Of a stretch of DNA of 35,838 bases, positions 414 through 33,425 are shown piece by piece. This DNA is from Oscillospiraceae bacterium (GTDB taxonomy: Bacteria > Bacillota > Clostridia > Oscillospirales > Oscillospiraceae), in contig CADAAM010000005.1 in the NCBI GenBank assembly GCA_902785905.1, positions 1 to 35,838 on the forward strand, in the 5' to 3' direction. The position numbers and the translations under genes are program-made. Below the pieces are notes generated by a model. The model did not search any database. It was given only the letters and a program-made list of their open reading frames with translations, and was not told the origin of the DNA. The first letter of the stretch is position 1; each line of letters starts with the position of its first letter.

Positions 414-1841
414 TTACTTCTTCGCGTTCGCGGCCATGTGCTCCTTCGTGAGCTTGATGGTCACGCCGGACAGGGCCAGCAGGGCGATGAGGTTCGGGAT
501 GGCCATGAAGCCGTTGAGGGCGTCGGCCAGGTTCCAGGCGTCGGCCAGACTCATGGTGGCGCCGATGATGATGAAGCAGATGAAGAGGATCTGGTACACG
601 CGCACGGACTTGTGGCCGAAGATGTACTCGCAGCAGCGGGTGCCGTAGAGGGACCAGCTCAGGATGGTGGACAGGGCGAAGAGGCTCAGGCAGACGGCGA
701 TGATGATCGCGCCGAACTTGCTGCCGAGCACGGAGCTCATGGCCGCCGCGACGTTGGAGCCGTTGCCGCCGCTGCCCCAGGTGATGTCGATGCCGCCGGC
801 GCAGTAGGCGGACAGCACGGTCAGACTCGTCAGGGTGCAGATGACGATGGTGTCCATGAAGACCTCAAAGATGCCGTAGAGACCCTGCTTGACGGGATCG
901 GTCTCGGAGGTGGCGGCGTGAGCGATGGGCGCGGAGCCAAGGCCGGCCTCGTTGGAGAAGCAGCCGCGGCCGACACCCTTCTTCATGCTGGTCATAATGG
1001 TGATGCCGATGGCACCGCCGACGGCGGCGGTGGGATTGAAGGCGCCCTCAAAGATCAGCGCAAAGACCTTGCCGATATGGGTGATGTTTGCGAAAATGAC
1101 AACCAGAGCCGCGATGATGTAGACGACAGCCATGAAGGGGACCAGCTTCTCGGTGACCTGACCGATGCGCTTGATGCCGCCGAGCACGACCAGACCGACA
1201 AAGACGGCGACGATGCAGCCGATGACAAAGGTGCTCACGCGGACTTCACTGCCGAGGAACATGAAGGTGGAGGCGGCGTTGGGCGTGAAGCTGTCGATGG
1301 CGTTGTTGACGGCGTCGGCGATGGACTGCACCTGGGTGGCGTTGCCGATGCCGAAGGCGGCGAGGGCGGCCAGCGCGGCGAACACGCCGCCGAGCCAGGC
1401 CCAGTTCCGGCCGAGGCCGTTCTTGATGTAGTACATCGGGCCGCCGACCCAGTCGCCCTTGGCGTTGCGCTCACGGTACTTGACGGCGAGCAGGACCTCG
1501 GAGTACTTGGTCATCATGCCGACGAGGGCCGCAACCCACATCCAGAAGACCGCGCCGGGGCCGCCGATGAAGATGGCGCCGGTGACGCCCGCAATGTTGC
1601 CGGTGCCGACCGTGGCGGCCAGCGCCGTGGTCAGCGCCTGGAAGGGCGTGACCTCGCCCGCACCGGCCTGGTGCTTGTCAAAGAGCTTGCCTGCGGTGTT
1701 CTTCCACCAGTAGGGGATGCGGCTGAACTGCAGAAAGCCCATCCGGAAGCTCAGGTAGAAGCCCGTGCCGACCAGCAGGAGCAGCATTACGGGACCCCAG
1801 GCGATGTCGTCGATGGTGGAGATGAATTGGCTGAGTGTCAT
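414..1841 (-). CDS. AGCS-family sodium:alanine/glycine symporter, glycine riboswitch controlled
   Basis: This 475-residue polytopic membrane protein of the alanine/glycine:cation symporter family imports small amino acids with Na+. The family signature is clear: SNEAGLGSAPIAHA followed by DP-KQGLYGIFEVFMDT, plus an N-terminal GTGNIAGV segment. The length is typical for AlsT/AgcS-type carriers. The ATG at 1841 is chosen because an AAGGAGG ribosome binding site lies 7 bases upstream. A glycine riboswitch about 350 bases upstream on the same strand argues that glycine is a substrate or signal. A MITE-like insertion lies between the two. The transport direction and the exact substrate (alanine or glycine) are inferred from family and leader, not shown by the sequence. 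Confidence 0.93.
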   Translation of the reverse strand: MTLSQFISTIDDIAWGPVMLLLLVGTGFYLSFRMGFLQFSRIPYWWKNTAGKLFDKHQAGAGEVTPFQALTTALAATVGTGNIAGVTGAIFIGGPGAVFWMWVAALVGMMTKYSEVLLAVKYRERNAKGDWVGGPMYYIKNGLGRNWAWLGGVFAALAALAAFGIGNATQVQSIADAVNNAIDSFTPNAASTFMFLGSEVRVSTFVIGCIVAVFVGLVVLGGIKRIGQVTEKLVPFMAVVYIIAALVVIFANITHIGKVFALIFEGAFNPTAAVGGAIGITIMTSMKKGVGRGCFSNEAGLGSAPIAHAATSETDPVKQGLYGIFEVFMDTIVICTLTSLTVLSAYCAGGIDITWGSGGNGSNVAAAMSSVLGSKFGAIIIAVCLSLFALSTILSWSLYGTRCCEYIFGHKSVRVYQILFICFIIIGATMSLADAWNLADALNGFMAIPNLIALLALSGVTIKLTKEHMAANAKK

Positions 1842-2146: not shown

Positions 2147-2190
2147 GCTCCGGAAATGAGAACCCATTGCCCCGTGAAAGGGGATGGGCA

Positions 2191-2336
2191 CTCTGTCCTT
2201 TTGCCTGAGAGATTCGGCCTTGCGGCCTTGCACCTTCGGCACTCCGCCAAGGGACACGGGCGGAGCTTCTCCAGAGTTTCCTCGGTCGACAGTTTCCCGA
2301 AAGATCCTGACGGCGTCAGAGGTATTGAAATGACAG
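2191..2336 (-). ncRNA. Glycine riboswitch (single aptamer)
   Basis: The minus strand carries the near-invariant glycine aptamer 3' end CTCTCAGGCAAAAGGACAG (ending near 2192). Upstream are GCCGAAGG-GCAA (about 2241-2228) and the 5' half CTCTGGAGA (about 2276-2268), which pairs with TCTCTCAG. Only one aptamer is visible. 5' of it is a small hairpin CTGAC-GCC-GTCAG, and TCTGTC near the predicted transcript start can pair with GACAGA at the 3' end. This resembles the truncated partner ('ghost' aptamer) of singlet glycine riboswitches; that detail is inference. It controls the AGCS symporter downstream, probably by transcription termination. Confidence 0.9.
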
Positions 2337-3471: not shown

Positions 3472-4056
3472 ATGACGCTGAAAGAATTGCGCAAAAAACG
3501 CAGCCTCACCCAGATCGCCCTTGCCAAGGAGCTGGGCGTGAGCGGCAAGACCGTCTCCCTGATTGAGGTTGGCAAGCTGAAGCTCAGCAAGAAGCTCTCC
3601 GACCGCATCCGGGAGGTCTATGGCGAGCTGGTTGAGCCCGCTGCCGCCGCTGCGGCCGAGGCCGTGCTGGAGACCGAAAAGAAGGTTCAGAAGAGAGGCC
3701 GCAAGGCGAAGGCCGGGGTGCAGACCGACAAGCCCGCCGTGGAGGCCGCCGCCGAGGCCGCGGTCGAGACAGCTGTCGAGATCGAGGAGAAGGTCGTCAA
3801 GAAGGCGAGAAGAGGCAGACCGCCCAAGGCCGCCGCGGAGAAGCCCGCAAGGCCCGCCGCCGAGAAGAAGCCGAGAAAGGCCGCCGGGAAGAAGAGCGCC
3901 CCCGCGCTGGTGATCCAGTCCCCCTTCGGCGGAGAGATCACGCCCGACGAGATCTATGCGAAGATCGGCGAGGCCGACATGGTCTATGTCCGCGTCGATC
4001 AGAACAAGGCCTATTGGGTCAAGGGTGAGGAGACCGGCGCAGTCGATCTCTGGTAA
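3472..4056 (+). CDS. HTH / AT-hook protein with C-terminal DUF6465-like domain
   Basis: This 194-residue protein has three parts. Residues 1-52 are a Cro/XRE-like helix-turn-helix (LTQIALAKELGVSGKTVSLIE). Residues 55-145 are an Ala/Lys/Pro-rich, low-complexity, highly basic linker with two AT-hook-like motifs (KRGRKAK near 74-80, RRGRPPK near 113-119). Residues 146-194 form a compact domain, ALVIQSPFGGEITPDEIYAK ending YWVKGEETGAVDLW, which I recognise as DUF6465-like from Clostridia. The ATG at 3472 has AAAGGA 9 bases upstream; the TTG at 3451 has no better site. The basic linker resembles histone H1-like tails, so a nucleoid-associated or chromatin-like role is plausible but unproven. The gene is single, with its own promoter and terminator. 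Confidence 0.82.
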   Translation: MTLKELRKKRSLTQIALAKELGVSGKTVSLIEVGKLKLSKKLSDRIREVYGELVEPAAAAAAEAVLETEKKVQKRGRKAKAGVQTDKPAVEAAAEAAVETAVEIEEKVVKKARRGRPPKAAAEKPARPAAEKKPRKAAGKKSAPALVIQSPFGGEITPDEIYAKIGEADMVYVRVDQNKAYWVKGEETGAVDLW

Positions 4057-4323: not shown

Positions 4324-5022
4324 ATGAGGCGAATCGTTTCGCTGATGCTCATGCTGGGCCTGGCGCTCAGCTTCTGCGCCGGGGCACAGGCCGAAGGGCC
4401 GAGGAAGAACAGCGTGTCGGAGCTCTACAGCGCGGAGGGCATATATACCGATGACGTGGGCAATGTCGAAAACTACAGTTACCATGTGCCTCAGCTTTGC
4501 GCGGACACTCCGGCGGCCGCGGAGATCAACCGGGAGATTGTCGACCGCTTCGGAGAAAAGGTCGAGGCACTGCTGAAGAATATGGAAGGGGGCTTTTCCC
4601 TCTGGATGTGGGAGTGCGCCTGGCACGCCTACTGGCAGGGCAGCCGCCTGTTCCTCATGGTTTCCTCCGACTTTGTAGACGGCTCCACCGACTACGCCGC
4701 CTGGGGCTACGACTTTGAGACGGGCGGCCGCGTGGATAACGCCATGATCCTGGAGTCCCTCGGCATCTCCGGGGAGGAGTATCTCGAAAACCTGCGCGAG
4801 AAGGTCGGCCTCATGTTTGAGAGCATGAACAGCTCTCTGACCGACGAGCAGTGGGAGCGCTTCGGCTGCGACAAGATGCTGGAGGACACGCTCTCCTGGC
4901 TGGATCTGGAGCAGCCCATGTATATCGACGGCAGCGGCCAGATCGTGACCATCGTCAGGATCGCCTCCGTCGCGGGGGCCGGCTGGTATTATCATCTCGC
5001 AACCCCCTTCTCCTACGGCTGA
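4324..5022 (+). CDS. Secreted protein of unknown function, RsiV/DUF3298-like features
   Basis: This 232-residue protein has a classical signal peptide (MRRIVSLMLMLGLALSFCAG, predicted cleavage after AQA at 23). The ATG at 4324 has GGAGGG 7 bases upstream; a longer in-frame start at 4297 would bury the signal peptide. The mature part reads like extracytoplasmic DUF3298/DUF4163 (RsiV or PdaC-type) domains: an early YSYHVPQL strand, an AAAEINREIVDRF helix, then strands rich in aromatic residues and a late LSWLDLEQPMYI segment. I did not see the full signature, so this is a fold-level guess. The gene stands alone between its own promoter and a terminator. No catalytic motif is apparent. Confidence 0.75.
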   Translation: MRRIVSLMLMLGLALSFCAGAQAEGPRKNSVSELYSAEGIYTDDVGNVENYSYHVPQLCADTPAAAEINREIVDRFGEKVEALLKNMEGGFSLWMWECAWHAYWQGSRLFLMVSSDFVDGSTDYAAWGYDFETGGRVDNAMILESLGISGEEYLENLREKVGLMFESMNSSLTDEQWERFGCDKMLEDTLSWLDLEQPMYIDGSGQIVTIVRIASVAGAGWYYHLATPFSYG

Positions 5023-18987: not shown

Positions 18988-20379
18988 TCATATCAGATTC
19001 GTGTAGCCCATTAAAAAGCGGTCGACTTCGGCGGCGCAGGCGCGGCCCTCCGCAATGGCGTGGACGACCAGGGACTGCCCGCGGTGCATGTCGCCGGCGG
19101 TGAAGATATGCGGCACGCTGGTCTGAAAGGAGCCTGCCTCAGTTTTCACAGTGCGGTCGAGCTCCACGCCGAAGGCGGCGCAGACATCCTCCCGGCACCC
19201 GGCAAAGCCCGTCGCGGCAATGAGCAGTTCACAGGCAAGCCGAGTCCCGTCCTTTGTGACAACGGCTGTGAGATTGCCCGCTTCGTCGGTTTCCAGCGAG
19301 GCGAGACTCTGCGAGAACAGGCGCGGGTCGCTGCCGAAGACAGCCTCTGCCTCTTCCTGCGCGTAGTCCTGCGGGAGACTGCCGTCGGGGGCAAGATAAT
19401 CCTCCCTCGGTCTGCGCACGAGCTGTGCGATGCTTCTGCAGCCCTGGCGCAGGCTCGTCGCCACACAGTCGCTCGCGGTGTTGCCGGTGCCGATGACGAT
19501 GACATTTTTCCCCTCGGCGGAGGGGACGGCGGGGGAGAGGGACAATTGCTGACGCTGGACTGCGGCGGGCAGAAAGTCCATGGCAAAGCACACGCCCCGG
19601 ATGCCCTCCGCATCGACCCCGAGCGGGCGCGGCTTTTCCGCCCCGCAGCAGAGCACCACCGCGTCATATTCCAGCATGAGGCGCTGGGCGACGGCCGGAT
19701 CGGCGGCGTCGAGGCCGGTCACAAAGCTCACGCCCTCGCGTGTCATGAGCTCCATGCGGCGGCGGACGACGGCTTTCGGCAGCTTCATATTCGGAATGCC
19801 GTACATCAAAAGCCCGCCGGGGTGTTGCCGCTTCTCAATCACCGTGACGCAGTGCCCCCGGTGGTTGAGCTGATCGGCCACCGCAAGCCCCGCCGGGCCG
19901 GAGCCGACCACCGCGACATTCTTTCCCGAGCTGTGAGGCGAAAAGCGCGGCTCCATCAGATGATGAGCGAAGGCGTACTCGATGATGCTCAGCTCATTGT
20001 CGTGCACCGTAACGGCATCGCCGTACAGCCCGCAGGTACAGGCCTGCTCGCAGAAGGCGGGGCAGACGCGCCCGGTAAACTCGGGGAAGTTGTTCGTTTT
20101 CAACAGTCTTGACAGCGCGTGGGCAAAGTTTCCGTCCATGATGCTGTCGTTCCACTCGGGGATCAGGTTGTGCAGCGGACAGCCGAGCTGCTTTCCCTCA
20201 AACTGCACGCCCGCCTGACAGAAGGGTACGCCGCAGTTCATGCAGCGCGCGCCCTGCTCGCGCCGCTGTTCTTGAGAAGAGGGAAGATGAAACTCCTCCC
20301 AGTCGTTTATCCGCTCCAAAGGCGGACGCACAGGATTCGCCCTGCGTTCATATTCCAGAAATCCGGTCGGTTTTCCCAT
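18988..20379 (-). CDS. gltD: Glutamate synthase (GOGAT) small subunit
   Basis: This 463-residue FAD/NAD(P)H oxidoreductase passes electrons to GltB for reductive transfer of the glutamine amide to 2-oxoglutarate. The N-terminal iron-sulfur region has RCMNCGVPFCQ, LGCPLHNLIPEWN and CPAFCEQACTCG. The FAD-binding site is VAVVGSGPAGLAVA, the NAD(P)H site is VIVIGTGNTASD, and the C-terminal FAD motif is HIFTAGDMHRGQSLVV. Length and motifs match GltD. ATG 20379 is chosen because GGAGG lies 8 bases upstream; a GTG at 20388 would overlap that site. It follows gltB by 13 bases and precedes the PEP-synthase-like gene by 14. Confidence 0.96.
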   Translation of the reverse strand: MGKPTGFLEYERRANPVRPPLERINDWEEFHLPSSQEQRREQGARCMNCGVPFCQAGVQFEGKQLGCPLHNLIPEWNDSIMDGNFAHALSRLLKTNNFPEFTGRVCPAFCEQACTCGLYGDAVTVHDNELSIIEYAFAHHLMEPRFSPHSSGKNVAVVGSGPAGLAVADQLNHRGHCVTVIEKRQHPGGLLMYGIPNMKLPKAVVRRRMELMTREGVSFVTGLDAADPAVAQRLMLEYDAVVLCCGAEKPRPLGVDAEGIRGVCFAMDFLPAAVQRQQLSLSPAVPSAEGKNVIVIGTGNTASDCVATSLRQGCRSIAQLVRRPREDYLAPDGSLPQDYAQEEAEAVFGSDPRLFSQSLASLETDEAGNLTAVVTKDGTRLACELLIAATGFAGCREDVCAAFGVELDRTVKTEAGSFQTSVPHIFTAGDMHRGQSLVVHAIAEGRACAAEVDRFLMGYTNLI

Positions 20380-20392
20380 CACGTCCACCTCC

Positions 20393-26540
<6,148 letters not shown>

Positions 26541-26548
26541 TCAAAACA

Positions 26549-26697
26549 CATTCAATTCGTGTTTGGGGCAGCTTTGCCGCCTCAAACACACCACAGGCGA
26601 GCAAAGCGAACCCTCGCACCGACCAAACGCGGCGTCTCACGCGCGCCGCGTGCGATAAGTGCGAGTCTTTCGATTGAAAACATTGTTTTCAATCGAA
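26549..26697 (-). repeat. Structured leader element, copy A (pyrG leader)
   Basis: Read in the pyrG direction there are three parts. P1 is TTCGATTGAAAAC/GTTTTCAATCGAA-like (26697-26669). P2 is CTCGCAC...GTGCGAG with a TTATCG / TTGGTCG internal loop and an inner GC stem (GCGGCG/CGCCGC). P3 is a GTGTTTG...CAAACAC hairpin with GGC...AAA...GCC at its tip (26589-26559). It matches 28979-29120 and 33246-33425, with compensatory changes in the stems. It could be a regulatory RNA domain or a dispersed hairpin repeat. Confidence 0.82.
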
Positions 26698-26698
26698 T

Positions 26699-26750
26699 AA
26701 CAAAGACGCCCATCCGGGGATAGTAATCCCAGATGAACGTCTTTGTTCAA
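26699..26750 (-). promoter_or_regulatory. pyrG-gltBD leader switch: hairpin with AxxG hexaloop overlapping a terminator-like stem
   Basis: From the predicted transcript start, TTGAAC-AAAGAC-GTTCAT (26750-26733) folds with a 6-base loop having A1 and G4, the signature of ANTAR-recognised loops. The same bases form the 5' arm of a longer stem AACAAAGACG (26747-26738) / CGTCTTTGTT (26708-26699) with an inner GGGAT/ATCCC hairpin. The two folds exclude each other. The terminator U tract is weak here (TTTGTTATT). Confidence 0.6.
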
Positions 26751-26757
26751 TACGGTG

Positions 26758-26786
26758 AGGATACACCGCGGATGCCGCTTTGTCAA
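26758..26786 (-). promoter_or_regulatory. Promoter of the pyrG-gltB-gltD operon
   Basis: On the minus strand TTGACA (26786-26781) and TATCCT (26763-26758) are separated by 17 bases. The -35 box overlaps the stop codon of the ANTAR gene. The predicted start is at about 26751, the first base of the leader hairpin. Confidence 0.8.
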
Positions 26787-27367
26787 GAATATGTTTTGAT
26801 GATGTTCTCCGCGGCCCGGCGCTTGGTGATGCGCTGATCCATGCTCTGCCGTTCGATATAGCGCTGGGCGTCAGCCTCCGTCATGCTCAGACATTCGATC
26901 AGCAGCCATTTGGCCCGGTTCACAAGGCGGATCTCTTCGATCTTGTCCTCCACGCTCTGCTGCTTCTGCTCCATGCGCCGCAGCCTCTCCCGCTGGGCGC
27001 AGAGCATGCGCAGGCTCTGGCTTACGAGGGCGCTGGCGCTGGGCATGGAGAGCGTCACCACCCCGTACTCCATCACGCGGGCGTTGATGCTGTCATAGAG
27101 TTCGGCCTTGACAAAGAGCAGCGCGCCCGCGGCACTGTCGGCACAGACGTCAATGGCGAGCTGTGTGCCGAAGTCGTCCTTGAGCGGGGTGTTGATGAGC
27201 ACCAGGTCAAAGCTCGTCTCCAGCAGCAGGCGTCTCGCCTCGCCGACGCTCCTTGCGCTCTGTACCGGGTAATACTCCGTTCCGGGAAGAAGGCCGCGCA
27301 GCTGATTATCCAGTTTTTCGGACGCGGAAACGATCAAAACGGAATAGGTCCGTTCCTGAAAGATCAC
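26783..27367 (-). CDS. ANTAR-domain RNA-binding antiterminator with pseudo-receiver (NitR-like)
   Basis: This protein has 194 residues. The receiver-like domain (about 8-120) has lost the phospho-acceptor: the usual Asp is Asn59 in DLVLINTPL, and the acidic pair at its start is replaced by VSASEK. The conserved Lys is kept (K87, LFVKAE). A coiled-coil linker (about 122-142) leads to an ANTAR domain (139-194: KIEEIRLVNRAKWLLIECL, TEADAQRYIERQSMDQR, AAENIIKTY). ANTAR proteins bind paired RNA hairpins with A1/G4 hexaloops and prevent termination. The GTG at 27367 has GGAGG 8 bases upstream; the ATG at 27373 is only 2 bases from it. It lies downstream of a type I glutamine synthetase gene, as in clostridial glnA-nitR pairs. 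Control by something other than phosphorylation is implied. Confidence 0.9.
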   Translation of the reverse strand: MIFQERTYSVLIVSASEKLDNQLRGLLPGTEYYPVQSARSVGEARRLLLETSFDLVLINTPLKDDFGTQLAIDVCADSAAGALLFVKAELYDSINARVMEYGVVTLSMPSASALVSQSLRMLCAQRERLRRMEQKQQSVEDKIEEIRLVNRAKWLLIECLSMTEADAQRYIERQSMDQRITKRRAAENIIKTYS

Positions 27368-27390
27368 GCGCATTCCCTCCTTTCCAATAC

Positions 27391-27486
27391 CCTCTCCGCC
27401 CCAGTGTGCGCACTGGGGCACCTCCCCCAAAGGGGGAGGCAAGTGCCTGAGTTCAAATCATGGGCTTGGCTCCCCCTCTGGGGGAG
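27391..27486 (-). repeat. CCCCAGTG/CTCCCCC hairpin repeat upstream of the ANTAR gene
   Basis: The modules are CCCCAGTG-TGCG-CACTGGGG (27399-27418), CCTCCCC/GGGGAGG (27421-27439) and CTCCCCC/GGGGGAG (about 27472-27486). In the ANTAR-gene direction the order matches the repeat before glmS (31296-31410). One stem differs in a compensated way: CCTCCCCC/GGGGGAGG here, CCTCTCCC/GGGAGAGG there. It is an intergenic repeat of a type common in this group of bacteria. Confidence 0.85.
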
Positions 27487-27557
27487 CATAGCGACGCGCG
27501 GGAAGCGCGCGACGATCCAAGATTGCCGGCACGGCGCGTCTCACGCAAGCGCCGCGA
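27487..27557 (-). repeat. Partial copy D of the structured leader element
   Basis: In the minus direction a CGGCGC...GCGTGAGACG...GCGCCG hairpin (27554-27532) resembles the core of copies A-C. It is followed by GGATCGTCGCGCGCT/GCGTCGCTATGCTC (27517-27485), nearly identical to the extra arm present only in copy C (33350-33383). It lies between glnA and the ANTAR gene. Confidence 0.6.
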
Positions 27558-27566
27558 CTGAGAGAG

Positions 27567-28778
27567 TCAGCGCTCGCAATAGGCGGCGATGATCGCCTCA
27601 GGGACAGTGCGCCGGACAAAGGCGCTCTCAAGGGCCAGGGCGTTTGCCTCCCGGAGAGAGCTCGGCAGGCGCTCAAAGCCGCGCAGAATTTCCTCGGGCG
27701 CGGTGAAGAGGTTGAGATCGGCGCTCGGCGGCAGGGGAAGTCCGGCCTCGATGCCGTCAAGCCCCGCGTGGATCAGAAGGGCAAAGGCCAGATAGGGGTT
27801 CACGCCGGGATCGGCGGAGCGCAGCTCTGCGCGCTTGTTAAGGCCGGGAGCCGCAGGGATGCGGATCAACTGGGAGCGGTTTTCACTCGACCAGGAGAGA
27901 TAGCCCGGCGCTTTCCGGCTGCCGAGACGGAGATAGGAGTTCTCCGTCGGGTTGAGAAAGGCGGTGATCTCCCGGATGCGGGCCATGATGCCGGCGATCA
28001 CCTGCCCGAGAAGGTCGCGTCCGTCCCGGCTCTCCACGGAAATGTTGATGTGCATCCCGTTTCCCGCCTGATCCGGGAGCGGCTTGGGGGAAAAGTCCGC
28101 CGCCAGGCCGTTTCGCGCGACGATGGCCTCCACCACGGCGCGGAAGGTCAGGGCGTTGTCGGCGGCGGTCAGGGGATCGGAGTAGCGAAAGTCGATCTCG
28201 TTCTGCCCCGGTCCCTCCTCGTGGTGGGAGCACTCCGGCTGTATGCCCATCTGGCTGAGGGTGAGGCAGATTTCGCGCCGCACATTCTCGCCCCTGTCCA
28301 TGGGGGCGATGTCCATGTAGCCCGCCCGGTCGAAGGGGATCTTGGTCGCCTCGCCGTCCTCATCGGTCTTGAAAAGATAAAACTCCATCTCCGTGCCGAA
28401 GGCAAAGGTGATCCCGTTTTTCGCCGCTCGCTCCACGGCCTTTTGCAGCAGGGCGCGGGAATCCGTCTCCAGCGTCGTCCCGTCCGGGTGGGCGACACCG
28501 CAGAACATGCGCACCACCTGGCCGTTTTCACCCCGCCAGGGCAGGGAGGCGAGGGTGGCGGGATCGGGGTGCAGAAAGAGATCGGAGCGCACCTCGCCCC
28601 CGAAACCGGCGATGGCGGAGGCGTCTATGGCGATGCCGTGCCGAAAGGCGCGGTCCAGCTCTGTCGGCAGGATGGCGATGTTTTTCTGCTTTCCGAATAC
28701 GTCGCAGAAGGCCAGGCGGATAAAGCGCACATCCTCCTGTTCCACATACTGGCGTACTTCCTGTTCGGTAAAGTCCAT
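27567..28778 (-). CDS. glnA: Type I glutamine synthetase (short form)
   Basis: This 403-residue enzyme catalyses ATP-dependent ligation of ammonia to glutamate. Family motifs are clear: FIRLAFCDVFGKQKNI, IDASAIAGFGG, MDIAPMDRGENVRREI, a metal-site stretch ECSHHEEGPGQNEIDFRY, and SENRSQLIRIPA at the glutamate/ATP site. It is about 40 residues shorter than classical GlnA. The usual GSGMHxHxS reads GNGMHINIS, and no adenylylation-site Tyr loop is evident. The ATG at 28778 has AAAAGGGG 5 bases upstream. It is followed on the same strand by the ANTAR gene and is divergent from a type III synthetase, sharing the promoter region. It is probably ammonium- or glutamine-regulated. Confidence 0.93.
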   Translation of the reverse strand: MDFTEQEVRQYVEQEDVRFIRLAFCDVFGKQKNIAILPTELDRAFRHGIAIDASAIAGFGGEVRSDLFLHPDPATLASLPWRGENGQVVRMFCGVAHPDGTTLETDSRALLQKAVERAAKNGITFAFGTEMEFYLFKTDEDGEATKIPFDRAGYMDIAPMDRGENVRREICLTLSQMGIQPECSHHEEGPGQNEIDFRYSDPLTAADNALTFRAVVEAIVARNGLAADFSPKPLPDQAGNGMHINISVESRDGRDLLGQVIAGIMARIREITAFLNPTENSYLRLGSRKAPGYLSWSSENRSQLIRIPAAPGLNKRAELRSADPGVNPYLAFALLIHAGLDGIEAGLPLPPSADLNLFTAPEEILRGFERLPSSLREANALALESAFVRRTVPEAIIAAYCER

Positions 28779-28815
28779 GATAAAAACCCCTTTTCCGATT
28801 CGTTCAACATGACGA

Positions 28816-28845
28816 AAGATACCATTGAACAGAATCCCTTGTCAA
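28816..28845 (-). promoter_or_regulatory. Promoter of glnA-ANTAR operon
   Basis: On the minus strand TTGACA (28845-28840) and TATCTT (28821-28816) are separated by 18 bases. The predicted leader is only about 30 bases. An imperfect inverted repeat (GTTCAACATG / CATTGAAC) brackets the -10 box. Confidence 0.7.
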
Positions 28846-28874
28846 TGCAAATCGGTGAAAAAATTTGAACGAAC

Positions 28875-28903
28875 TTGACAAGAGCGCCGAACGGGTCTAT
28901 ACT
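28875..28903 (+). promoter_or_regulatory. Promoter of the type III glutamine synthetase gene
   Basis: TTGACA (28875-28880) and TATACT (28898-28903) are separated by 17 bases. It is back to back with the glnA promoter; the two -35 boxes lie within 41 bases and are inverted copies (CTTGTCAA / TTGACAAG). Confidence 0.85.
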
Positions 28904-28913
28904 CACGAGCGTC

Positions 28914-28974
28914 TTGAGACAACGACGTCTCAGTGGGCTGAGTGCCCCTGTACGTCGTTGTCTCTTTTTTTGTT
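28914..28974 (+). promoter_or_regulatory. Leader attenuator of type III synthetase: AxxG hexaloop hairpin versus strong terminator
   Basis: TTGAGAC-AACGAC-GTCTCAG (28914-28933) is a hairpin with a hexaloop carrying A1 and G4. The alternative fold is a 12-bp terminator stem AGACAACGACGT (28917-28928) / ACGTCGTTGTCT (28952-28963) with an inner GGGC/GCCC hairpin, followed by a long T tract (28965-28971). The terminator starts about 7 bases after the predicted transcript start, and there is no upstream plus-strand gene to end. It must therefore act on this transcript or make a short RNA of about 60 bases. Confidence 0.75.
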
Positions 28975-28975
28975 T

Positions 28976-29169
28976 TAGTCGATTGCGAAACTCTGGTTTC
29001 GCAATCGAGGACTCACGCTTATCGCACGCGGCAAGGCGTGATATGCCGCGTTTGGTCGGCGTGAGGCCTCGCAAAGCTCGGCTCAGGGTGTTTATGAGAA
29101 AGCAAAGCTCTCTCATAAACGGATCGGATTCCCTCCGTGATACATGAACGAGACTGTCGCAATCGACTA
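28976..29169 (+). repeat. Structured leader element, copy B (type III synthetase leader)
   Basis: P1 is TCGATTGCGAAAC/GTTTCGCAATCGA (28979-29008). P2 is CTCACGC/GCGTGAG (29012-29065) with the conserved TTATCG / TTGGTCG internal loop and a GCGGC/GCCGC inner stem. P3 is GTTTATGAGA/TCTCATAAAC (29090-29120). It is bracketed by a perfect 12-bp inverted repeat TAGTCGATTGCG (28976-28987) / CGCAATCGACTA (29158-29169), which competes with P1 for the same 5' arm. Confidence 0.82.
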
Positions 29170-29199: not shown

Positions 29200-31293
29200 A
29201 TGAAATCCGTACCGGAAACCTTCGGCAGTCTTGTTTTTGACGACCGCACCATGAAGGCCCGTCTCACCGGCGAGGTCTATCGCGCCATGAAGCAGACCAT
29301 GAAGAAGGGCCAGCCCCTTGACCCCAAGGTGGCAAACGCCGTCGCGACCAGCATGCGCGACTGGGCCGTGGAGCACGGCGCCACACACTTTACCCACTGG
29401 TTCCAGCCCCTCACCGGCGTCACGGCGGAGAAGCACGACAGCTTTATCTCTCCCGCGCCCGACGGCGGCGTCATCATGGAGTTTTCCGGCAAGGAGCTCA
29501 TCCGCGGGGAGCCTGACGCCAGCTCCTTCCCCTCCGGAGGCCTGCGTGCCACCTTTGAGGCGAGAGGCTACACCGCCTGGGACCCCACCTCCTACGCCTT
29601 CATCAAGGGCAAGGTACTGTGCATCCCGACGGCCTTTTGCTCCTACGGCGGCGAGGCCCTGGACAAAAAGACCCCGCTGCTGCGCTCCATGGAGGCCCTC
29701 AACCGGGAGGCGCTGCGCATCCTTCGGCTCTTCGGAAACCTCGATGTCCAGCACGTCAGCTGCTCGGTAGGGCCGGAGCAGGAGTACTTTCTTGTGGACC
29801 GCGAGCTTTACAAAAAGCGCCGCGACCTCATCTACACCGGACGCACCCTGTTCGGCGCAAAGCCGCCCAAGGGGCAGGAGCTGGACGACCACTACTTCGG
29901 CGTCATCAAGCCCCGCGTGCAGGCCTATATGGAGGAGCTGAACGAAGAGCTCTGGAAGCTCGGCATCCTCGCCAAGACCGAGCACAACGAGGTCGCTCCC
30001 TGTCAGCATGAGCTCGCGCCCATCTACTCCACCACCAATATCGCAACCGACCACAACCAGCTCACCATGGAGATCATGCAGAAGGTCGCCGAGAAGCACG
30101 GCCTTGTGTGTCTGCTGCATGAAAAGCCCTTCGCGGGCGTCAACGGCTCCGGCAAGCACAACAACTGGTCCATCGCCACCGACACGGGGATAAACCTCCT
30201 GTCTCCCGGCGAATCCCCCTATGAAAACGCGCAGTTTCTGCTGTTTCTGATCGCGGTTATCGAAGCCGTGGACGAGTACGCCGATCTCCTGCGGGCAAGC
30301 GTCGCCACCGCCGGGAACGACCACCGCCTGGGCGCCAACGAAGCGCCGCCCGCCGTGGTCTCCGTCTTCCTCGGGGATGAGCTCACGGCGGTGCTGGAGG
30401 CGCTTGAGAAGGAGGAGCCCTACGCCGGGACTACGAGGCCCGAGATGATGCTGGGCGTGCTGACCCTGCCGCGCTTTCTGCGCGACACCACCGACCGCAA
30501 CCGCACCTCGCCCTTCGCCTTTACGGGCAACAAGTTCGAGTTCCGCATGGTGGGCTCCTCCAACTCCATCGCCTGCGCGAACATCATGCTCAACGCCGCC
30601 GTGGCGGACACCCTGCGGAAGTTTGCCGATGAACTTGAAAAGAGCGCGGACTTTGACGCGACCCTCCACGCCCTGCTGATCGGGAGCCTCAAGGCCCACA
30701 AGCGCATTCTCTTCAACGGCAACGGCTATGACGACGCCTGGATCGAGGAGGCAACACAGGTGCGCGGCCTGCACAACCTGCGCACTACGCCCGACGCCAT
30801 GAAGGCCCTGCTGGATGAGAAAAACAGGGAGATGCTGCTCAAACAGAAGGTCTATTCCGAGACGGAGCTGCGCTCCCGCTATGAGATCATGCTGGAAAAC
30901 TACTGCAAGACCATCATCATCGAGGCCCACACCATGGCGGAGATGACGCGCAAGGAGATCCTGCCCGCCGTGACAAAGTACTGCGCCGCCGTAGCAGAGG
31001 GGGCGGGAAAGAAGCGCGCGCTTGTTCCGACGCTGCCCTGCGCCTATGAGACGGGGCTTGTGGAAAAGCTCTCGGTACTGTCCGATCAGATCGAAAAGAG
31101 CGTGGAGGCGCTGGAGGGAACGCTCGTAAAGCTCTCCACAGTTTCGGAGATCACCGCGCTTTCCGAGGCGATCCGCGACACGCTGCTGCCCGGTATGGCG
31201 GAGCTTCGCGCCGTGGCGGACGAGGCGGAGCTCCTGACGGCAAAGGAATACTGGCCCTTCCCGACTTACGGCGACCTGCTTTTCGCCATGTAA
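29200..31293 (+). CDS. glnN: Type III glutamine synthetase
   Basis: This 697-residue GSIII enzyme is full length for that family, which is common in Bacteroidetes, Clostridia and cyanobacteria. It makes glutamine from glutamate, ammonia and ATP. Characteristic segments are the N-terminal [46 protein letters not shown], the glutamate-binding [10 protein letters not shown] and [28 protein letters not shown], and [14 protein letters not shown]. The C-terminal GSIII helical region follows to the end. The ATG at 29200 has AAAGGG 9 bases upstream. The roughly 290-base leader carries the attenuator and element B. It is divergent from glnA and starts a plus-strand run with glmS, guaA and amt. Confidence 0.96.
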
Positions 31294-33245: not shown

Positions 33246-33425
33246 TCAATTGCGAAACGGTGTTTTGCAATTGAGACACTCGCGCTTATCGCGCGCGGCG
33301 CGCGGGAGACGCCGCGCTTGGTCGGCGCGAGGCCTCGCACTGCAAGCATGGATCGTCGCGCGCTACCCGCGCGTCGCTATGCTCGGCTCAAGGTGTTTCT
33401 GAGGCGGCAAAGCTGCCTCAAAAAA
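33246..33425 (+). repeat. Structured leader element, copy C (guaA leader)
   Basis: P1 is TCAATTGCGAAAC/TTTTGCAATTGA (33246-33274). P2 is CTCGCGC (33279-33285) / GCGCGAG (33325-33331) with TTATCG / TTGGTCG and GCGGCG/CGCCGC. An extra arm AGCAT...ATGCT (33345-33383) is unique to this copy and shared with partial copy D. P3 is TGAGGCGGC-AAA-GCTGCCTCA (33400-33420). It lies between glmS and guaA, in the guaA orientation. Confidence 0.82.

Follow-up and report, generated by a model that had tools for sequence, protein, structure and literature searches.

In a 35,838-nucleotide (nt) stretch of DNA from an Oscillospiraceae bacterium (positions 1 to 35,838 of contig CADAAM010000005.1, assembly GCA_902785905.1; this whole stretch is the window in what follows), the leaders of pyrG and of glnN, the gene of a type III glutamine synthetase (GS), each begin close to a strong promoter with a hairpin whose six-base loop has A as its first and G as its fourth base (A1/G4 hexaloop). 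In both leaders, the loop and the 3' arm of the hairpin also belong to the 5' arm of a terminator. The leader observation is real, and not the product of chance. Judging from sequence comparison, both leaders are putative antitermination switches, operated through one hairpin by the ANTAR protein encoded between them; the probability assigned to this reading is about 0.85.

Structure of the pyrG and glnN leaders

26758..26786, minus strand: promoter of the pyrG leader, TTGACA-17-TATCCT (TTGACA 26781-26786; TATCCT 26758-26763), score 9.0; 13 nt from the end of the -10 box to loop A1
26734-26749, minus strand: hairpin of the pyrG leader, TGAAC(AAAGAC)GTTCA, A1/G4 hexaloop 26739-26744; predicted ANTAR site and antiterminator, matched by the covariance model
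26696..26747, minus strand: pyrG terminator, which overlaps the hairpin through its stem (26699-26747); the U-rich tail, UUUGUUAUU at 26696-26704, is weak and lies in part within the stem
28875..28903, plus strand: promoter of the glnN leader, TTGACA-17-TATACT, score 9.6; 17 nt from the end of the -10 box to loop A1
28914-28933, plus strand: hairpin of the glnN leader, TTGAGAC(AACGAC)GTCTCAG, A1/G4 hexaloop 28921-28926; matched by the covariance model
28916..28976, plus strand: glnN terminator, with a stem (28916-28964) whose 13-bp outer part overlaps the hairpin, followed by a T tract (28965-28976)

A first-pass annotation of the same DNA had called attention to A1/G4 hairpins near the promoters of the two leaders, and to their overlap with terminators, and both features are confirmed by the coordinates, the promoter scores and the predicted folds. 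The terminator fold of the pyrG leader reaches -32.0 kcal/mol, versus -12.1 when the 5' hairpin is enforced; the corresponding values for glnN are -35.0 and -15.4 kcal/mol. None of 200 shuffles is as stable as the glnN leader (z-score -8.7), or as an 85-nt piece of the pyrG leader which includes the next hairpin (z-score -10.4). The short hairpins alone are energetically ordinary, 47 of 200 shuffles being as stable for pyrG (piece one base short; the complete hairpin measures -3.4 kcal/mol) and 20 of 200 for glnN. The two leaders are therefore insufficient by themselves, and comparison across relatives is needed. The apical TGGG...CCCC likeness of the terminators, also noted earlier, is present in both leaders, and the weakness ascribed to the pyrG terminator holds for its U tract.

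Recurrence of the unit in related genomes

The genome of the window (G000, of which the window is contig 5) measures 2.73 Mb in 191 contigs, and is 85% complete. Orthologs of its ANTAR gene are found in 56 of 150 genomes of the family, and loci were taken from 40 of these (family loci); a second set is made up by 80 named loci, the best 80 of 590 confirmed. The two sets are not independent, the middle part of five of the 40 family loci being found unchanged in a named locus, and many loci are short. The nearest relatives by ANTAR protein among the best 80 of 590 loci are five metagenome-assembled genomes, four assigned to Ruminococcaceae and one to Clostridiales (93-95% identity).

Upstream regions of glnN, pyrG, guaA and glnA-I, the latter encoding a type I GS-like protein, were collected from the 40 family loci and the window (94 regions). 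A1 and G4 are both present in 36 of the 39 hexaloop hairpins overlapping a terminator. Positive leaders number 30, versus 0 or 1 in each of 20 shuffled sets (shuffles were made for hexaloops only). Loops of 4, 5, 7 and 8 bases occur in 20, 2, 2 and 8 hairpins, respectively, and show no consensus. On both strands of the loci, hexaloop units overlapping a terminator and located behind a strong promoter (score cut-off 8) have A1/G4 in 33 of 34 cases in the 40 family loci and in 82 of 84 in the 80 named loci, 115 of 118 in total; once the promoter demand is dropped, A1/G4 falls to 54 of 145 and 110 of 297, respectively. The 115 promoter-linked units correspond to 106 distinct sequences, the commonest form being C-A-A-N-G-R-C-G. 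Orthologous leaders thus retain both the A1/G4 loop and the overlap with the terminator, the loss of which had been named as grounds for giving up the proposal.

Sixty-two units were aligned, the two of the window and 60 out of 66, since L081, L090, L094, one of L153, L158 and L163 were omitted by hand. In three of the six omitted units the last loop base is not C, and the invariant C6 of the alignment thus results in part from selection. In the alignment 94.4% of cells are paired and covariation is 0.70, versus at most 0.20 when slid, values which are partly circular, as the rows had been preselected for stems of at least 5 bp. Base pairs 3 to 6 from the loop vary on both sides together. The stem covariation first noticed between the two leaders of the window is found in relatives also when the stem plays no part in the selection of sites. 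AANGNC occurs 12-18 nt after a strong promoter at 114 sites behind 528 such promoters, four control distances giving 10 to 20 sites. A stem of at least 5 bp is formed in 64 of the 76 distinct sites selected this way, versus 23 on average and 33 at most after redistribution of the 3' flanks. A covariance model built from the 62-unit alignment matches in G000 exactly the pyrG and glnN leaders (E 0.01). A pattern based on sequence only, with up to two mismatches, gives no signal across G000 (30 matches, versus 34 for the reversed pattern).

Absence of the first hairpin

The defining feature of published ANTAR RNAs is a pair of stem loops (PMC3369931, PMC8164766, PMC3369936, as far as the available text goes), a first (P1) and a second (P2) hairpin joined by a short linker. 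The units described here lack this arrangement, and are a variant of the canonical dual-hairpin element. With the seventh base after the -10 box assumed to be +1, the stem begins -2 to 7 nt from +1 in the 115 promoter-linked units, and in none of them is there room between +1 and stem for a P1, which needs 14 nt in its minimal form. Between 70 nt before the -35 box and the unit, none of the 115 has an additional A1/G4 hexaloop on a stem of 5 or more. Downstream to the gene, 102 of the 115 units have no further A1/G4 hexaloop, and neither leader of the window has a second one. Eight leaders contain a second complete hairpin and terminator unit in tandem (L064, L066, L068, L070, L074, L081 and L083 before glnN, L073 before glnA-I), a doubling that might make the response steeper.

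To check that the scanner can detect P1, it was applied to the 30 best loci surrounding distant ANTAR genes of the phylum (near-duplicate pairs L284/L285 and L290/L291 included). P1 was detected beside 9 of 25 units, a low estimate given that some comparator units scored without P1 serve as P1 to the unit that follows, versus 1 of 201 in loci of the orthogroup; in shuffled upstream sequence P1 appears in 7 of 500 cases. A strong promoter adjoins none of the 25 distant units versus 142 of the 201. The missing P1, remarked earlier for the two leaders only, is hence the rule across the orthogroup, and the predicted geometry makes it very likely that the units are a one-hairpin, 5'-terminal form of ANTAR antitermination.

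Genes following the unit

The genes behind the 115 strong units, named by best match to a window protein, are glnN (49), the gene of a GOGAT (glutamate synthase) amidotransferase-like subunit of about 365 amino acids (25; labelled gltB in the count), pyrG (15), glnA-I (8), guaA (3), glmS (2) and others (13). One of the two glmS-labelled targets (L153) is asparagine synthase B by family search. The 13 others include glutamate dehydrogenase (gdhA, 5), an amtB-PII fusion (2), adenylosuccinate synthase (2) and four single targets, namely a GOGAT-like glutamine-amidotransferase subunit, a DHODB-type electron-transfer subunit, a Peripla_BP_6 binding protein and Ku. The unit linked to Ku (L160, loop ATAGTC) is probably there by chance. 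Nearly all targets are genes of nitrogen assimilation, of glutamine-using reactions or of purine synthesis. The first-pass annotation had envisaged a single regulator for glutamine synthesis, GOGAT and CTP synthesis; co-occurrence and target genes support the idea, and its scope has to be widened to a family-wide regulon.

A second glnA-ANTAR subfamily, with a GlnA of the catalytic type, is represented by L226 and L228. In both, an A1/G4 hairpin, GAGAC(AATGCA)GTCTC, lies upstream of gltB, between the ANTAR gene and gltB; it adjoins a terminator, and the overlap is not clear.

Co-occurrence with the ANTAR gene

Among glnN leaders, the unit is present in 19 of 26 from family loci that bear ANTAR and in 39 of 47 from named loci, versus 1 of 24 where no ANTAR gene was found (p 4e-7, 19/26 vs 1/24). 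Leaders of pyrG carry it in 9 of 21 family loci and 12 of 33 named loci, and in 0 of 10 distinct genes from genomes without ANTAR (p 0.03, 9/21 vs 0/10). The ANTAR-free genomes used for this comparison are at least 90% complete, with no ANTAR gene found. The covariance-model search in related genomes, earlier proposed as a check, gives matches in 39 of 56 ortholog-bearing and 17 of 80 ortholog-free genomes, 14 of the 150 being outside the search. Another ANTAR gene is present in 29 of the 80 ortholog-free genomes and none in 51, and the 17 matching genomes split 8 and 9 between the two groups. Among genomes at least 90% complete, matches occur in 28 of 39 with the ortholog versus 3 of 25 without any ANTAR gene found. 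Among the six strongest exceptions (E < 2e-4), four stem from assemblies with a completeness of 67-85% and with 200-370 contigs.

Eleven genera include both ortholog-bearing and ANTAR-free members, some of the latter incomplete. Matches are found in the bearer only in 7 genera, in both in 2, in the other only in 1, in neither in 1. Two genomes of the same genus as G000 have no ANTAR gene: in G109 neither glnN nor pyrG has the unit, and in G004 there is no match to glnN or pyrG.

Units in genomes with no ANTAR gene found are located at 4530 (+) of L273 (G049), before a purC-purA operon which ends in guaA-pyrG, at 3643 (-) of L274 (G130), before purF, and at 1033 (+) of L275 (G037), before glnN. 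In G130, a pyrG start (L241, 2-274, minus strand) is 97% identical to the window pyrG over 91 amino acids, yet identity at glnN is 63%, which suggests recent transfer or contamination for the pyrG start.

The ANTAR protein and its neighbour GlnA-I

The model of the ANTAR protein (AlphaFold, mean predicted local distance difference test score 90.8) matches EutV, Rv1626 and AmiR in Foldseek, and the EutV-RNA complex gives the best template modelling score of the three (0.76-0.79). Pfam, the model and Foldseek agree on a C-terminal three-helix ANTAR domain following a coiled coil. In the receiver-like domain, the position of the phosphoacceptor, identified by alignment to Rv1626, holds Asn in most of the 120 orthologs (102), the others having Gln (7), His (6), Asp (3) or a different residue (2), and the position of the strand-1 acidic pair holds Ser in 116 of 120. 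Both the acceptor Asp and the acidic pair of a phosphorylated two-component receiver are thus missing from most orthologs, and phosphorylation is therefore unlikely as a general signal.

Residues through which EutV contacts RNA are known from the structure of the complex (PMC8934654, available text). By our own mapping, the equivalents of its Lys143, Lys147 and Lys149 are basic (Arg in 120, Arg or Lys in 118, and Lys in 120 of 120 orthologs, respectively), and the equivalent of Glu160 is retained in all 120.

In 120 of 121 loci glnA-I, a gene not mentioned by the first-pass annotation, is the immediate neighbour of the ANTAR gene and shares its strand. The flap Glu of GS (Glu304 of Bacillus) is replaced in GlnA-I, 115 orthologs having Lys (111, among them Lys289 of the window protein), Arg (1), Ser (1), a gap (1) or Glu (1), and Arg is found in none of the 115 at the position equated with Bacillus Arg62. 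Eleven positions, which we take to be binding residues for metal, nucleotide and glutamate, are kept in 105-114 of 115 orthologs, and GlnA-I may still have activity. The flap Glu is present in all 16 readable GlnA proteins encoded beside other ANTAR genes of the family (20 loci examined). It is likewise present in all 11 GS proteins matched in a set of 25 ANTAR-free genomes, 14 of which gave no match at E 1e-10. These 25 genomes are at least 90% complete; glnN is kept in 22 and a Lys-flap GlnA-I is found in none, a pattern to be expected of a protein that works for the switch and not in synthesis. In Clostridium thermocellum, deletion of the type I GS reportedly deregulates nitrogen metabolism, to go by the title of a 2017 study by Rydzak. 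The ANTAR gene of the same species, Clo1313_2030, is numbered next to that of a type I GS, Clo1313_2031 (PMC4676874, PMC9888227, available text). GlnR of Bacillus reads the feedback-inhibited state of GS, in which glutamine is held by Glu304 and Arg62 (PMC9249791, available text). Taken together, gene order and residue changes incline us to regard GlnA-I, at odds somewhat better than even, as the sensor partner of the ANTAR protein.

Proposed mechanism and alternative explanations

RNA polymerase would start transcription just upstream of the hairpin, at a distance of a few bases. In the default state the long terminator, the 5' arm of which includes the loop and the 3' arm of the hairpin, would form and end transcription ahead of pyrG-gltBD or of glnN. 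When nitrogen (glutamine) is limiting, the ANTAR protein would bind the A1/G4 hexaloop fresh from the polymerase and keep the short hairpin in place, the terminator would be blocked, and the genes would be transcribed. A single hexaloop at the extreme 5' end, with no P1 upstream, would suffice. As the receiver-like domain mostly lacks the phosphoacceptor Asp, the activity of the ANTAR protein would probably be set by the neighbouring GlnA-I, in the way AmiC holds AmiR. Binding, antitermination and the nitrogen signal are all features that we infer for this system. The balance tips, though slightly, towards a nitrogen module of gut Clostridia in which a GlnA-I deprived of the flap Glu would be purely a sensor, holding or freeing a non-phosphorylated ANTAR protein which acts on one 5'-terminal hexaloop per operon; the module would control whether transcription terminates ahead of genes for ammonium assimilation and of glutamine-using genes for nucleotides and amino sugars.

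The leaders could be true regulated attenuators whose hexaloop is read by another RNA-binding protein or by a small ligand. ANTAR binding is a prediction, and model matches in 9 of the 51 genomes where no ANTAR gene turned up fit such a reader; it is unlikely nonetheless, as A1 with G4 is the signature of ANTAR targets (PMC3369931, PMC3369936, available text), the units follow the ANTAR gene across the family, most same-genus contrasts included, four of the six strongest exceptions come from incomplete and fragmented assemblies, and the Rfam scan of the window gives a glycine riboswitch alone, located elsewhere. Classical two-hairpin elements, with a P1 overlooked because its stem is imperfect or because transcripts come from a promoter further upstream, are more improbable still: P1 stems can be short, and two hairpins are the published rule (PMC3369931, PMC8164766, available text), but none of the 115 units leaves 14 nt between the assumed +1 and the stem or is preceded, within the stretch from 70 nt before the -35 box, by an A1/G4 hexaloop on a stem of 5 or more, and the scanner does detect P1 in distant ANTAR systems.

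Ordinary constitutive terminators, or stem-loops stabilizing the 5' end, in which A1/G4 would be coincidental or ancestral, agree with the plain energetics of the hairpin alone and with the weak U tract of pyrG. The share of A1/G4 among promoter-linked units (115/118), the lack of consensus in loops of other sizes, the compensatory changes at pairs 3 to 6 and the association with many unrelated nitrogen genes leave this explanation next to no probability. In Bacillus subtilis, pyrG is controlled by CTP-dependent reiterative transcription. The same control might act on pyrG here, the likeness to glnN being unrelated; pyrG is the target in both cases, and in one relative (L059) GGG lies close to the predicted start. 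The unit also precedes glnN, GOGAT genes, guaA and others, however, and no G run is found at the predicted start of the pyrG leader of the window, and this control is very improbable too.

Several observations weigh against one-hairpin switches operated by the ANTAR protein. Transcription starts are predicted from the promoter alone, and EutV antitermination in vivo needed both hairpins (PMC8934654, available text). In place of Tyr164 of EutV, which stacks on G4, 108 of 120 orthologs have His and the other 12, that of G000 among them, have Gln, and Arg142, another G4 contact, aligns by our own mapping with Ile in the window protein. Units behind a strong promoter are present in 24 of 40 family loci and 56 of 80 named loci, and missing from the rest. 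By the criteria applied, the unit is absent from 7 of 26 glnN and 12 of 21 pyrG leaders of ANTAR-bearing family loci, and targets therefore differ among species. No model match is found in 17 of the 56 genomes with the ANTAR ortholog. Conversely, three of the nine matching genomes with no ANTAR gene found are at least 90% complete (G049, 99%; G130, 94%; G037, 93%), and their units look genuine by eye. Statistics of presence and absence are not independent of phylogeny, the effect of shared ancestry being only partly removed.

Gene order and other elements in the window

18988-20388, minus strand: gltD, glutamate synthase small subunit (TIGR01317), downstream of pyrG
20393-24910, minus strand: gltB, glutamate synthase large subunit (NF008730), downstream of pyrG, which it overlaps by 11 nt
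24900..26513, minus strand: pyrG, CTP synthase (CTP_synth_N and GATase domains), first gene of the controlled unit
26783..27373, minus strand: ANTAR gene, start codon ATG at 27371-27373, preceded by GGAAAGGAGG; the product has a receiver-like domain, a coiled coil and an ANTAR domain
27567..28778, minus strand: glnA-I, type I GS-like protein of 403 amino acids, directly upstream of the ANTAR gene on the same strand
29200..31293, plus strand: glnN, type III GS (GSIII_N, Gln-synt_C-ter), controlled gene

Around the two leaders, gltD, gltB, pyrG, the ANTAR gene and glnA-I reside on the minus strand, glnN, a glmS-type gene and guaA on the plus strand. The ANTAR gene lies between the leaders, as stated by the first-pass annotation, and is the only PF03861 match (E 1.2e-12) in the 85% complete genome.

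A structured repeat (TTATCGCACGCGGC...GCCGCGTTTGG) is found at 26613-26665 (-), 29012-29065 (+) and about 33290-33420 (+), the copies at pyrG and glnN being located between terminator and coding start. Nine copies with an exact core are present in the genome, and a degenerate copy precedes guaA. The outer helix differs between the pyrG and glnN copies, and pairing is retained. The tail of about 120 nt common to both leaders had been considered as a second conserved switch element; it was discarded as a dispersed repeat, given the nine genomic copies of its core and the copy before guaA. A near-perfect hairpin, CGATTG...CAATCG, directly follows each terminator, at 26669-26697 (-) and about 28979-29008 (+), within or adjoining the repeat. 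The glycine riboswitch, the sole Rfam match of the window (RF00504, 58 bits, 2183-2284, minus strand), is located upstream of a sodium:alanine symporter family gene (414-1841, minus strand).

Comparison with known systems

The structural study of EutV defined a single hexaloop as the minimal ANTAR site, and left open how widely single hexaloops are used; it also asks why antitermination needs both hairpins, proposing a recruitment model (Walshe 2022, PMC8934654, available text). Searches of the open PMC library brought up no account of one-hairpin ANTAR terminators at transcription starts, subscription papers and supplementary tables being outside this scope. Natural and widespread terminators with a single hexaloop, which by prediction leave no space for a second, make the single-hairpin question directly testable. 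Covariance searches based on two hairpins, as used in the literature so far as its available text tells, would tend to miss one-hairpin units. An RNA-level nitrogen regulon is proposed for many gut Clostridia, in parallel to GlnR/TnrA, with GlnA-I as a candidate pseudo-enzyme sensor.

The leaders resemble those of the eut genes of Enterococcus faecalis controlled by EutV/EutW, A1/G4 hexaloops with a C-G closing pair being common to both (PMC3369931, PMC8934654, available text). In both systems the 3' part of the antiterminator is shared with the terminator, and the ANTAR protein has a receiver-like domain and a coiled coil. The leaders described here differ in having one hairpin instead of P1 and P2, at the predicted start of transcription, a receiver mostly lacking the phosphoacceptor Asp with no tie to a sensor kinase shown, and a regulon devoted to nitrogen assimilation. 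Antisense control of nitR/glnA in Clostridium acetobutylicum is said to have been described by Fierro-Monti in 1992. Dual-hairpin matches before glutamate and glutamine synthase genes were reported in diverse bacteria, Desulfotomaculum included (Ramesh 2012, PMC3369931, available text), and in C. thermocellum an ANTAR gene lies beside GS/GOGAT genes (PMC4676874, available text). ANTAR proteins near glutamine and glutamate synthase genes, and RNAs before these genes, had thus already been proposed for nitrogen systems of Desulfotomaculum and Clostridium; those searches used dual hairpins, and the one-hairpin, promoter-abutting form does not appear in the available text of these accounts.

AmiR of Pseudomonas aeruginosa, which the ANTAR protein of the window probably resembles in this respect, is not driven by phosphorylation (PMC3369936, available text). 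In AmiC/AmiR as in NasS/NasT (PMC3795266, available text) the ANTAR protein is held by a partner. Here the partner would be GS-like, and the targets, unlike those of the two systems, are many operons. The likeness to GS-GlnR of Bacillus (PMC9249791, available text) lies in a GS encoded beside the regulator and serving, here putatively, as nitrogen sensor. The two arrangements differ in that the GS-like partner described here mostly lacks the equivalents of Glu304 and Arg62, residues of the feedback-inhibited state, and in that the regulator would act on RNA and not on DNA.

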